Part shown: positions 12,418-14,357 of the stretch, piece after piece
How the letters are laid out: each line of letters begins with the position of its first letter
How positions within the stretch are numbered: the first letter of the stretch is position 1
The notes under the pieces: model-generated
Told to the model about the DNA's origin: nothing
The model's database searches: none
What the model saw: only the letters and a program-made list of their open reading frames with translations
From: a virus
IMG/VR virus record: IMGVR_UViG_3300042945_001115
Span: 1 to 34,954 of that record
Length of the DNA: 34,954 bases
Direction: 5' to 3' (one strand)
Program-made: the position numbers and the translations under genes

Positions 12418-12675
12418 ATGCGCGTGCGGCTTGGAGGCAAGAACTGGACGCTCCGGTTCGCCAACATCCGGGACTACGGCGACATGAACGACCCCGGCAA
12501 GGCCGAGGGCCGCGTCATCCGCATTGCAACATGGCAGGGTGACCGGGAGACCTTGGACACCATCATCCACGAAGCCCTGCACGCCTCGCTGCCCCTGCTT
12601 GACGAGGTGGCCGTCCACGAGACCGCCAACGACCTCTCACGACTTCTTTGGCGTTTGGGCTATCGCAAGCAGTAA
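12418..12675 (+). CDS. Small HExxH metallopeptidase-like protein
   Basis: ATG 12418 follows AGGAGG, which overlaps the stop of the phosphoesterase gene. The 85-residue product contains TIIHEALHAS, a zinc-binding HExxH (H51, E52, H55), followed by an acidic helix (LLDEVAVHETANDLSRLLWR) that could offer the third ligand. It is far shorter than standard metalloproteases, but small HExxH proteins are common in phages and their substrates are unknown. Cotranscription with the phosphoesterase is likely. Confidence 0.65.
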   Translation: MRVRLGGKNWTLRFANIRDYGDMNDPGKAEGRVIRIATWQGDRETLDTIIHEALHASLPLLDEVAVHETANDLSRLLWRLGYRKQ

Positions 12676-12812
12676 CATGGGCGGCGCGGAGGCGCAGGTC
12701 TGCGGCTGTCGGAGGCCAACCACCTGCATGGGCTGGCGCAGAAGTCCGGTGACGGTACGCCCGCCAGCGGCGCAACCATTGGTGTAGGAACAGCATCCCG
12801 CCCCGGGGCAGG
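12676..12812. other. 137-bp gap between convergent genes
   Basis: This stretch separates the rightward HExxH gene from the leftward nuclease gene. GCCCCGGGGC at 12800-12809 is palindromic, but no convincing terminator with a T-run is visible on either strand. A short frame beginning ATG 12677 has no ribosome site and is not called. Confidence 0.4.
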
Positions 12813-13250
12813 TCAAGGCGAAGCCTGACGCTGCTCCACCATCTTGAACGATTCGATTGGGATGTGGAGCACGGGTTCGATGTCCATCGGGTCGGCCCGG
12901 TCCTCCCGGCCACCGATGGATTCCGTCATCGTGCATCGGTCAAGGCGCACCCATCCAAGGCGGTTCACCCATCCAACAAGGAGGATCGGCGCGATGTCCC
13001 GGCAGGCGGCATCCCCCACGAGGTGCTGCACCTTGCGCTTGGAGATCATGTAGGTGGGGTACTTTCGCCATCCGCACAGGCGGCACTTGACCTCCACGAG
13101 CGCGACCACCTTGCCGCCCTTGTGCAGCTCGTAGTCCCACCCGCAGAGCATCGGCATCTCGACCGGGAAGCATGGGTACGCCTCGCAGAAGCGGTGGATG
13201 ACCGCGCCTTGCGCGCGGCGGTCCTCGGATCGCTCGTAGATTGGCCGCAC
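12813..13250 (-). CDS. PD-(D/E)XK-type nuclease
   Basis: The start is GTG 13248-13250, giving 145 residues. CGWDYELHKGGKVVALVEVK has the D39...E53-V-K55 arrangement of the PD-(D/E)XK nuclease core. KYPTYMISKRKVQHL after it resembles the helix in VRR-NUC and Holliday-resolvase-like phage proteins. Cysteines flanking the core (CRLCGWRK) could bind metal. It is likely to process recombination or packaging intermediates, alongside RusA. A TAGTCT box lies nine bases upstream and there is no good ribosome site, so the exact start is not secure. Confidence 0.7.
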   Translation of the reverse strand: MRPIYERSEDRRAQGAVIHRFCEAYPCFPVEMPMLCGWDYELHKGGKVVALVEVKCRLCGWRKYPTYMISKRKVQHLVGDAACRDIAPILLVGWVNRLGWVRLDRCTMTESIGGREDRADPMDIEPVLHIPIESFKMVEQRQASP

Positions 13251-13315
13251 GGAGCAAGGAGACTACACATCCCCGCACCTGTGGCAGTTTCGATCCGCGT
13301 TCTGCGGCGAAGCGA

Positions 13316-13394
13316 CCGCTCCGTAAGCGGAAAGAAGAAGTCGTAAGCGTTTCTTACAGGTTCGCCTTCCCGTAAGTGGAAGTTTAGGTTCCAC
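13316..13394. repeat. CGTAAGYG iterons with three short hairpins
   Basis: CGTAAGCG occurs at 13322-13329 and 13342-13349, and CGTAAGTG at 13371-13378, spaced 20 and 29 bases apart. Each copy overlaps a perfect hairpin: CCGCT/AGCGG (13316-13330), GTAAG/CTTAC (13343-13357) and GTGGAA/TTCCAC (13376-13394). The pattern could mark binding sites for a replication initiator or repressor. Confidence 0.5.
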
Positions 13395-13409
13395 ATCCCG
13401 GAAGCGAAA

Positions 13410-13436
13410 CGCCCGCCTGCACAGGCAGGACGGGCG
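13410..13436 (-). terminator. Strong hairpin, possible terminator
   Basis: CGCCCG-CCTGC (13410-13420) pairs with GCAGG-A-CGGGCG (13425-13436), with one bulged A and a four-base loop. On the minus strand it is followed by TTTCG, a weak T-run. It may end a leftward transcript or be part of the structured region. Confidence 0.4.
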
Positions 13437-13539
13437 CATTCCGGGGGCAAGATAGGCAGGGCCGTCCGTGGCCTCTACCGCCGCGCCTACGGCGTCAGAT
13501 CCGCGTGCGAGGCGTGGGGACTATACCGGGAAACGAAAC

Positions 13540-13563
13540 GGGCGCAAGCGTATGCCTGCGCCC
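13540..13563. other. 7-bp hairpin before the non-coding promoter
   Basis: GGGCGCA (13540-13546) and TGCGCCC (13557-13563) form a perfect stem with a 10-base loop. It is preceded by ACGAAAC, a short motif also seen before the hairpin at 13410 (GCGAAAC) and at the start of the predicted transcript at 13612. Confidence 0.45.
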
Positions 13564-13577
13564 ATCTCGCATTCTGC

Positions 13578-13605
13578 TTGCATCTCACGGCGGTGCCGTT
13601 ATGAT
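13578..13605 (+). promoter_or_regulatory. Promoter inside the non-coding region
   Basis: TTGCAT (13578-13583), a 16-base spacer and TATGAT (13600-13605) predict transcription from about 13612. No start codon with a ribosome site follows; instead the transcript folds at once into the nested stem 13623-13674. Confidence 0.55.
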
Positions 13606-13611
13606 GCGCGG

Positions 13612-13860
13612 CGACGAAACCTGCGCTTGCATTCTAGCGAACCTGACCTGCGGGTCAAGAATGCCGCAAGACGCCCCCGGCGCGGTAGGGGGGCATGGAT
13701 GTAGTCGCAGGGAAGCGACCCTACCCTGCGCCACCGAAAGGTGCGCTCACCCACGATTGAGGCGGCTGGCGATCCTCCAGCGAAATGGTGAAATTCGTGG
13801 CATCGACCGAAGCGCGGCTCCGTGCGGGCTGGTTGATCGTGGCCCCATTGCGGGGTCACG
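13612..13860 (+). ncRNA. Candidate structured non-coding RNA
   Basis: From the predicted start the RNA can form a series of stems. A nested stem pairs 13623-13635 with 13658-13674 and encloses TGACC-TGCG-GGTCA (13644-13657). GCCCCC/GGGGGC pairs 13673-13678 with 13689-13694. CGCAGGG/CCCTGCG pairs 13706-13712 with 13724-13730. CACC-GAAA-GGTG (13732-13743) has a GNRA tetraloop and is extended by GCG/CGC. GTGGCCCC/GGGGTCAC pairs 13839-13846 with 13852-13859. Some stems exclude one another. I match no known RNA class. The 3' end is not known and could reach the palindrome near 14000. Confidence 0.45.
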
Positions 13861-13973
13861 CTCCCTCCACGCTCACCATGCGGACTGCAAGCCCTGTACG
13901 GCGCACGCAACCCCCGGCGGTCACGACCTGCGGACTCTGCCCGTATGGGTGCGGTGCGTGCGTCGAGCTTTGA
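13785..13973 (+). CDS. Doubtful 62-residue ORF with CxxCPYGCGxC
   Basis: This frame (ATG 13785) ends in CGLCPYGCGACVEL, which looks metal-binding. There is no ribosome site, codon use differs from that of its neighbours, and the DNA overlaps predicted RNA stems. I list it only as an alternative reading of the region. Confidence 0.15.
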   Translation: MVKFVASTEARLRAGWLIVAPLRGHAPSTLTMRTASPVRRTQPPAVTTCGLCPYGCGACVEL

Positions 13974-13983
13974 CGGGTGCGGT

Positions 13984-14032
13984 CGCCGCCGCGCAGCGCG
14001 CCGTAGGCGCAGCGCGCGCAGCGGCGGCGCGG
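13984..14032. other. Long GC-rich imperfect palindrome
   Basis: GCCGCCGC on the left pairs with GCGGCGGC on the right, and an inner GCGCC-GTA-GGCGC hairpin caps the structure. No T-run follows. It could be a cruciform at an origin, a transcription roadblock or the 3' end of the structured RNA. It lies about 15 bases before the TAGACT box of the next gene. Confidence 0.45.
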
Positions 14033-14045
14033 AAGGGCGACTCGG

Positions 14046-14051
14046 TAGACT
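14046..14051 (+). promoter_or_regulatory. -10-like TAGACT box, possible leaderless start
   Basis: TAGACT ends six bases before GTG 14058, and no ribosome site intervenes. No clear -35 element is visible. Confidence 0.35.
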
Positions 14052-14057
14052 GCCCTC

Positions 14058-14357
14058 GTGAGGCGGAAGCGACGGCCAACCCCGATTCTGTTGGAGGGGA
14101 TGGATGACTGCCTGCTCGGGGTGGCGTACCCCCGCGCGGAGGAGGACGGGATACCCGTCGCCGTATACAGCGCGGACATGATTGCGGCCCGTTTGCGGGA
14201 CAGGGATGGGCTATCAAACCGAGAGGCGCGGGTATTCGTGGCGGATCGGTTGGAGACCAACTGGATGGGGGTGGGTAGTCCCCGGTTCGTCTGGGCGGCG
14301 ACCGTGGAGGACTTTGGGGCCAAGCGCGACCGCCCAGACCCCGAAGAGCGGGCCTAG
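14058..14357 (+). CDS. Hypothetical 99-residue protein
   Basis: GTG 14058 starts MRRKRRPTPILLEGMDDCLL, followed by PRAEEDGIPVAVYSADMIAA and a helical segment (LSNREARVFVADRLETNWMG) before an acidic tail. DREGLS-type spacing with a WxGxGSPRFVW segment is common in small phage proteins of unknown role. It may be translated from a leaderless mRNA. It ends before a hairpin-rich gap and the right early promoter. Confidence 0.6.
   Translation: MRRKRRPTPILLEGMDDCLLGVAYPRAEEDGIPVAVYSADMIAARLRDRDGLSNREARVFVADRLETNWMGVGSPRFVWAATVEDFGAKRDRPDPEERA

Follow-up and report, generated by a model that had tools for sequence, protein, structure and literature searches.

What is encoded by about 800 bp of phage DNA that appears to hold no gene? 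The question arises in a linear virus record from IMG/VR, the whole 34,954 bases of which make up the window analysed here, with genes for a terminase, a Mu-like portal and RecT-like, RusA-like and ParB/methyltransferase proteins. Its non-coding region 13251–14057 sits between a PDDEXK_14 gene (12813–13250, minus strand) and a small gene at 14058–14357. An earlier note, made from the letters alone, had proposed that the region encodes a new structured RNA with its own promoter, adding in an aside that it might be an origin. Here we show by computation that the plus strand of this locus folds as an RNA, that a predicted antisense promoter and terminator accompany the fold, and that the RNA is exchanged one for one with putative initiator genes.

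A conserved non-coding core

As the earlier note had held, 13251–14057 contains no credible gene: neither its 200-amino-acid plus-strand open reading frame (ORF) nor its 103-amino-acid minus-strand ORF has a match in PHROGs. A conserved coding frame, which that note had named as a result that would overturn an RNA reading, fails on the alignment of relatives. The plus frame meets stops in 44 of 46 relatives and the minus frame in 28 of 46, variable columns fall evenly across the codon phases (40/48/40), and indels of 1–2 nt occur among relatives within the RNA block. Together with the empty PHROGs search, these features lead us to reject a protein on either strand.

Relatives of the locus were collected through the putative small downstream gene g14058 (14058–14357, plus strand), a synteny anchor; of its 93 relatives in viral contigs, we fetched 80, and further RNA loci came from pattern scans. 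The block upstream of g14058 shows about 79–93% nucleotide identity between relatives and the window. Its conserved core spans 13624–13887 on the plus strand, about 270 nt, and was found with 76–100% identity at 95 fetched loci in uncultured phages, a count that includes the window and three late finds and in which some loci are overlapping pieces of one contig. The structured locus of about 800 bp described in the earlier note thus narrows to this core and two covarying hairpins upstream of it, the remainder not belonging to the core.

The searches for known RNAs were as empty as that note's failure to recognise a signature had suggested. Rfam gave no match over the whole window at the gathering threshold, cmscan of 12600–14100 at E ≤ 10 returned only two chance miRNA matches, and a tRNA and tmRNA search found nothing. 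blastn gave no match to isolate phages and no real match to plasmids, and two DNA patterns scanned against bacterial genomes found none, the single Nitrincola match being a chance one: its sequence is unrelated, and the overlap covers just about 31 positions of the model. Relatives of the window's terminase are only about 25% identical, and identification of the host from them failed.

The plus strand folds as a pseudoknotted RNA

Alignment A2 comprises 47 distinct copies of the core (279–285 nt, pairwise identity down to 76%). RNAalifold on the alignment gave 71 pairs, 11 with changes on both sides, and this fold was refined by hand with a covariation scan to 12 helices and 66 pairs. On A2, standard pairs fill 99.4% of the cells of the 66-pair fold, against 95.8% after shuffling (0 of 500 shuffles as high); 13 pairs have both-side changes (0 of 500) and the covariation score is 0.152 versus 0.085, with the qualification that the shuffles do not keep relatedness. 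Sliding one strand along the other lowers pairing to 30–42%, a control that somewhat favours the structure because it was chosen partly on A2. G-U cells outnumber A-C cells in the fold by 234 to 12, which indicates that the plus strand folds as RNA. Traced on a tree of the RNA itself, the covarying pairs that vary most (17/28, 25/50, 37/46, 65/84, 66/83, 100/121 and 127/138) changed state 3–5 times each; a single inherited event therefore does not account for the covariation.

Covariation across homologous phage contigs was the check that the earlier note had put forward for a new structured phage RNA, and it came out in favour of one in several stems. The hairpin density on which the same note had relied is not evidence in itself: the minimum free energy (MFE) of 13612–14057 is no better than that of shuffled sequences (z = 0.07). 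For the whole 807 nt, z is −2.4 on one strand and −5.7 on the other, and we set folding energy aside as uninformative.

The core begins with a 5′ H-type pseudoknot (13624–13664) made of S1 (13624–13627/13636–13639), S2 (13629–13635/13658–13664) and an inner hairpin S3 (13645–13648/13653–13656), all three with compensatory changes (14 versus 33 sequences in S1, 6 versus 41 in S2). Hairpin P3 (13673–13694) follows, with an invariant GGCGCGGTAG loop and three pairs changed on both sides. The element 13706–13743 contains P4 (13706–13711/13725–13730; compensatory pair at columns 100/121) and P5 (13732–13735/13740–13743; columns 127/138), whose GNRA tetraloop cap is GAAA or GCAA in every copy but one. 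P6 (13751–13756/13795–13800; columns 148/195) encloses P7 (13765–13769/13777–13781; columns 164/174), each with a compensatory pair, and P8, P8b and P9 (GTGGCCCC/GGGGTCAC) occupy 13804–13859, with 95.7% of cells paired in P8, 99.2% in P9 and one both-side change in each of these two. The stems pointed out in the earlier note are all present in this fold, at 13624–13664, 13732–13743 (CACC-GAAA-GGTG) and 13839–13859 (GTGGCCCC/GGGGTCAC).

A long-range GACCCT/GGGGTC pairing proposed by RNAalifold was dropped for hairpin P9, since two loci (L102 and L112) support the latter by covariation. Another possible long-range helix, P11 (ATGGTGA/TCACCAT, 13785–13791/13873–13879, plus strand), is nearly invariant; it varies only as U-A/U-G, which gives it little covariation support, and it competes with GCATGG/CCATGC.

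Promoters and a predicted antisense RNA

The best-conserved promoter of the locus lies on the strand opposite to the one that the earlier note had indicated. It is of the sigma70 type, reads TTGACC-16-TAGAAT (13631–13658, minus strand), lies inside the pseudoknot and was also returned by an independent promoter scan; the pattern TTG[AC][CT]C-16-TA[GC]AAT occurs there on the minus strand in 91 of 92 RNA loci, and 2.48 Mb of sequence contain no further occurrence. The plus-strand promoter-like sequence of the earlier note, TTGCAT-16-TATGAT, is indeed present at 13578–13605, but it falls inside a covarying hairpin, H2, and its −35 is less well kept than its −10: TANNNTG is found in 91 of 92 loci, the full pattern TTGCAN-16-TANNNT in only 58 of 92. 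Hairpin H2 (13580–13607; outer stem GCATC/GATGC, inner stem ACGGC/GCCGT) keeps its pairing while its sequence varies, and its covarying outer stem leans to the plus strand (8 versus 2).

Hairpin H1 (13539–13564), with both-side changes in 8 of 10 pairs, has 13 A-C to 1 G-U when read on the plus strand, which indicates that here the minus strand folds. On the minus strand H1 is followed by TTTCGTTT in the window and by TTTCGTTT-like tails in relatives; this terminator hairpin, kept in 22 of 22 representatives, is a predicted antisense terminator. From promoter and terminator together (22 of 22 representatives), we predict that an antisense RNA some 90 nt long is made, with inferred ends at 13531–13624 on the minus strand.

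How far this RNA would overlap the sense transcript depends on the plus-strand start, and no plus-strand promoter is conserved in all loci. A weak alternative −10-like sequence, TATACC (13522–13527, plus strand; about half of the 22 representatives), could start a longer sense RNA that includes H1 and H2, in which case the antisense RNA would lie across its 5′ end; a start at about 13612 would leave a short overlap only.

The RNA is exchanged with putative initiator genes

The gene order around the locus is g11437, g12418, block B2, optional genes, the slot, WADN and MAWYA (where present) and g14058, and the upstream anchor g12418 (12418–12675, plus strand) keeps its place in RNA-type and protein-type phages. 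In 137 loci, the slot holds the RNA only (92), a protein only (39), both (0) or neither (6), the last being contigs that begin downstream of the slot. The slot proteins match DUF1376 (PF07120, E = 4e-8) or HTH_36 (PF13730), for which the PHROG annotations are 'primosomal protein' and 'replication initiation protein' or 'O-like', respectively. Most slot genes carry internal direct repeats of 11–12 bp (20 bp in L021), which would fit an initiator gene with its origin inside it, as in lambda. Any such repeat occurs in 22 of 26 protein-type slot regions versus 8 of 46 RNA-type ones, and the RNA-type repeats listed are other motifs (GCGTGAATAT, common to some protein-type phages, and GC-rich repeats). 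Annotation and repeats together suggest that the DUF1376 slot proteins are replication initiators. Between the slot genes of L018 and L022 and that of L021, a DUF1376 N-terminal domain and an HTH_36 domain are each found fused to one shared C-terminal region (GVVDI..LRRLVMREPAWRTRIERAEAGD), which indicates that the initiator's N-terminal domain itself has been exchanged.

Sister phages that differ in the slot (L134/L063, L064/L075 and L050/L052) have flanks about 92–99.9% identical; L134 and L063 share 99.9% identity over 2,177 nt upstream of the slot and 92% downstream. Parsimony on flank-gene trees with 65 tips places about 11–12 changes of slot state, against a shuffled mean of 20.5.

Across eight long genomes, the slot is the only consistent difference. 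We compared the ORFs of five RNA-type and three DUF1376-type genomes with no prior choice of gene: those present in at least four of the five RNA phages and in no DUF1376 phage were just two frames that overlie the RNA and are spurious. The sole ORF common to all three DUF1376 phages and missing from every RNA phage (G018, 20034–20552) overlaps the DUF1376 match. DUF1376 has exactly one match in each of 8 long protein-type contigs and is absent from 15 of 15 long RNA-type contigs, in which HTH_36 likewise has none above the cut-off (23 long contigs searched); these contigs are linear metagenome fragments, so the absence of an initiator elsewhere is no proof. Neither type has a detectable integrase or ParA (AAA_31, PF13614; 23 contigs for both) or DnaB helicase.

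The exchange of RNA for protein at one genomic place is a natural experiment, which implies that the RNA would do the initiator's job. A repeated one-for-one swap with an origin-bearing initiator gene makes the RNA the most likely supplier of both origin and initiation. Because the slot is shared with iteron-bearing initiator genes, our leading hypothesis, which we consider likely although well short of certain, is that this locus serves as an RNA-based origin of replication, a module that replaces a gene for a protein initiator together with the origin inside that gene. The origin aside of the earlier note was then probably right, and it is compatible with the RNA reading. Alternatively, the RNA could act in trans, in regulation or host takeover, occupying the slot by chance while an unrecognised initiator elsewhere replaces DUF1376. 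Its C-rich loops CAGUCCU and GGCUCC could pair with Shine–Dalgarno sequences, and the contigs may be incomplete, but the five-versus-three genome comparison revealed no RNA-phage-specific ORF and the repeated one-for-one exchange would be left unexplained; we regard this alternative as unlikely.

A proposed mechanism for RNA-based initiation

ColE1 plasmids use a structured sense RNA II, an antisense RNA I across the RNA II 5′ end and no initiator protein. If the locus is an RNA-based origin, its plus-strand transcript would fold into a compact pseudoknotted RNA (13624–13887, perhaps from about 13530) and start DNA synthesis at the locus, most simply as a template-held pre-primer like ColE1 RNA II. 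The antisense RNA of about 90 nt, running leftwards from inside the 5′ pseudoknot to H1, would set activity or specificity, as RNA I does. What we infer for the locus is that it is transcribed, acts as an origin, primes DNA synthesis and is under antisense control; neither a site for RNase H nor the end of a primer is identifiable in it. A bolder version seems possible but rather doubtful: that a phage family in which no integrase, ParA or DnaB helicase is detectable uses a compact pseudoknotted RNA, not an initiator protein, to start replication, perhaps by direct replisome loading rather than with a ColE1-style primer, the RNA being freely interchangeable with an iteron-binding initiator.

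The hairpins might instead act in single-stranded DNA, as an origin or priming signal of the primosome-assembly or G4 type, with transcription incidental. The exchanged gene is annotated as a 'primosomal protein', single-stranded DNA priming sites are structured, and GNRA-like loops and G-T pairs are found in DNA as well. Twelve helices and a pseudoknot, however, exceed the known single-stranded priming sites in complexity, and the 5′ end has a dedicated, nearly invariant promoter and a terminator; a signal at the DNA level is accordingly improbable too. A leader acting in cis on the following gene, such as a riboswitch or an attenuator, is very unlikely: in many loci a same-strand gene does lie 100–200 nt downstream, but its identity varies (WADN, MAWYA or g14058), in several examples it has its own TTGACA/TATACT-like promoter, and four loci that lack WADN (the window, L029, L078 and L093) still keep the RNA. 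Least credible by far is an overlooked protein or chance stems in GC-rich DNA, since the alignment already contradicts it: a 200-amino-acid ORF spans the region in the window and the MFE is unexceptional, but the small indels, the relatives' stops and the even codon phases speak against coding, and pairing of 99.4% versus 30–42% in the slid controls speaks against chance.

Relation to known systems

RNA-based origins are known from ColE1-type plasmids and from one group of mycobacteriophage prophages. With ColE1 the locus shares a predicted layout, comprising a structured sense RNA, an opposing promoter within it for a short antisense RNA, and no initiator protein; judged by sequence features, the antisense RNA would also end at an intrinsic terminator, a hairpin close to the 5′ end of the sense RNA, where hairpins are hypervariable but conserved in structure. 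Unlike ColE1, the RNA occurs in tailed phages, has no Rfam match to ColE1 RNAs even at E = 10 and no plasmid match, and its priming role is only proposed here.

The functional precedent for alternation of RNA and initiator is found in cluster A mycobacteriophages, some of which have repA and others an origin based on noncoding RNA (Wetzel et al. 2020, PMC7157519), and it supports the RNA-origin reading. RNA-based prophage origins, for which no initiator protein was identified, are present in RedRock, Alma, LadyBird, Et2Brutus and Gladiator; they are linked to parABS and are needed for prophage maintenance, not for lytic growth (PMC7157519). In both cases a noncoding RNA stands where sister phages have an initiator gene, slot occupancy being mutually exclusive here. 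The two differ in that model R1 matches nothing in the Alma and RedRock ori regions (L155 and L156), that the 23 contigs examined here have no ParA and no integrase, and that the exchange partner is an iteron-bearing DUF1376 or HTH_36 gene rather than repA. In lambda O-type origins, the likeness is to the sister phages, whose HTH_36 or DUF1376 slot genes hold internal iterons; the slot in the window has no protein and its RNA no iterons.

GOLLD and ROOL, to which the earlier note had compared the locus, are structured phage RNAs that were likewise found by comparative genomics (PMC12286853). The comparison does not hold further: the core of about 270 nt is far smaller, and it matches neither Rfam family.

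Membership in the ColE1 or mycobacteriophage RNA-origin families is therefore not supported by these comparisons, and the locus is a probable RNA-based origin of a kind distinct from both. Judged by the missing Rfam and plasmid matches, the lack of an R1 match in Alma and RedRock and the missing ParA, the core RNA is a new, previously undescribed RNA family. If the origin reading is true, a large, structured and apparently unrelated RNA in many environmental phages would make RNA-driven initiation a general phage option, and sister phages 92–99.9% identical outside the slot offer a testable system for initiator replacement.

Other conserved elements of the region

Several further elements recur around the slot. 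Window block 13309–13367 is found inverted just after the end of the g12418 gene in L073 (1695–1639), L058, L059 and L029, which suggests a moved or inverted segment. Window 13402–13472, a third conserved non-coding stretch with a GC-rich dyad, is common to L042, L053, L056 and L069. Downstream of the RNA, 13984–14029 forms a very GC-rich hairpin; a similar one lies 3′ of the RNA in L116, L118, L122 and L093, with GGAGCGCAGC-type repeats. A direct-repeat array of the 10-bp GCGTGAATA, about 830–860 nt after g12418, occurs in both RNA-type and protein-type phages (L049, L050, L052, L053, L055, L056 and L068) and may be an array of binding sites.

Block B2 is a second structured element, found at 12680–12840 in the window, at 1950–2095 in L061 and at about 80 other loci, in RNA-type and protein-type phages alike. 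It has no Rfam match and is usually preceded by TATACT. In an alignment of 18 representatives, 19 of its 38 predicted pairs show compensatory changes, and B2 is probably another new small RNA.
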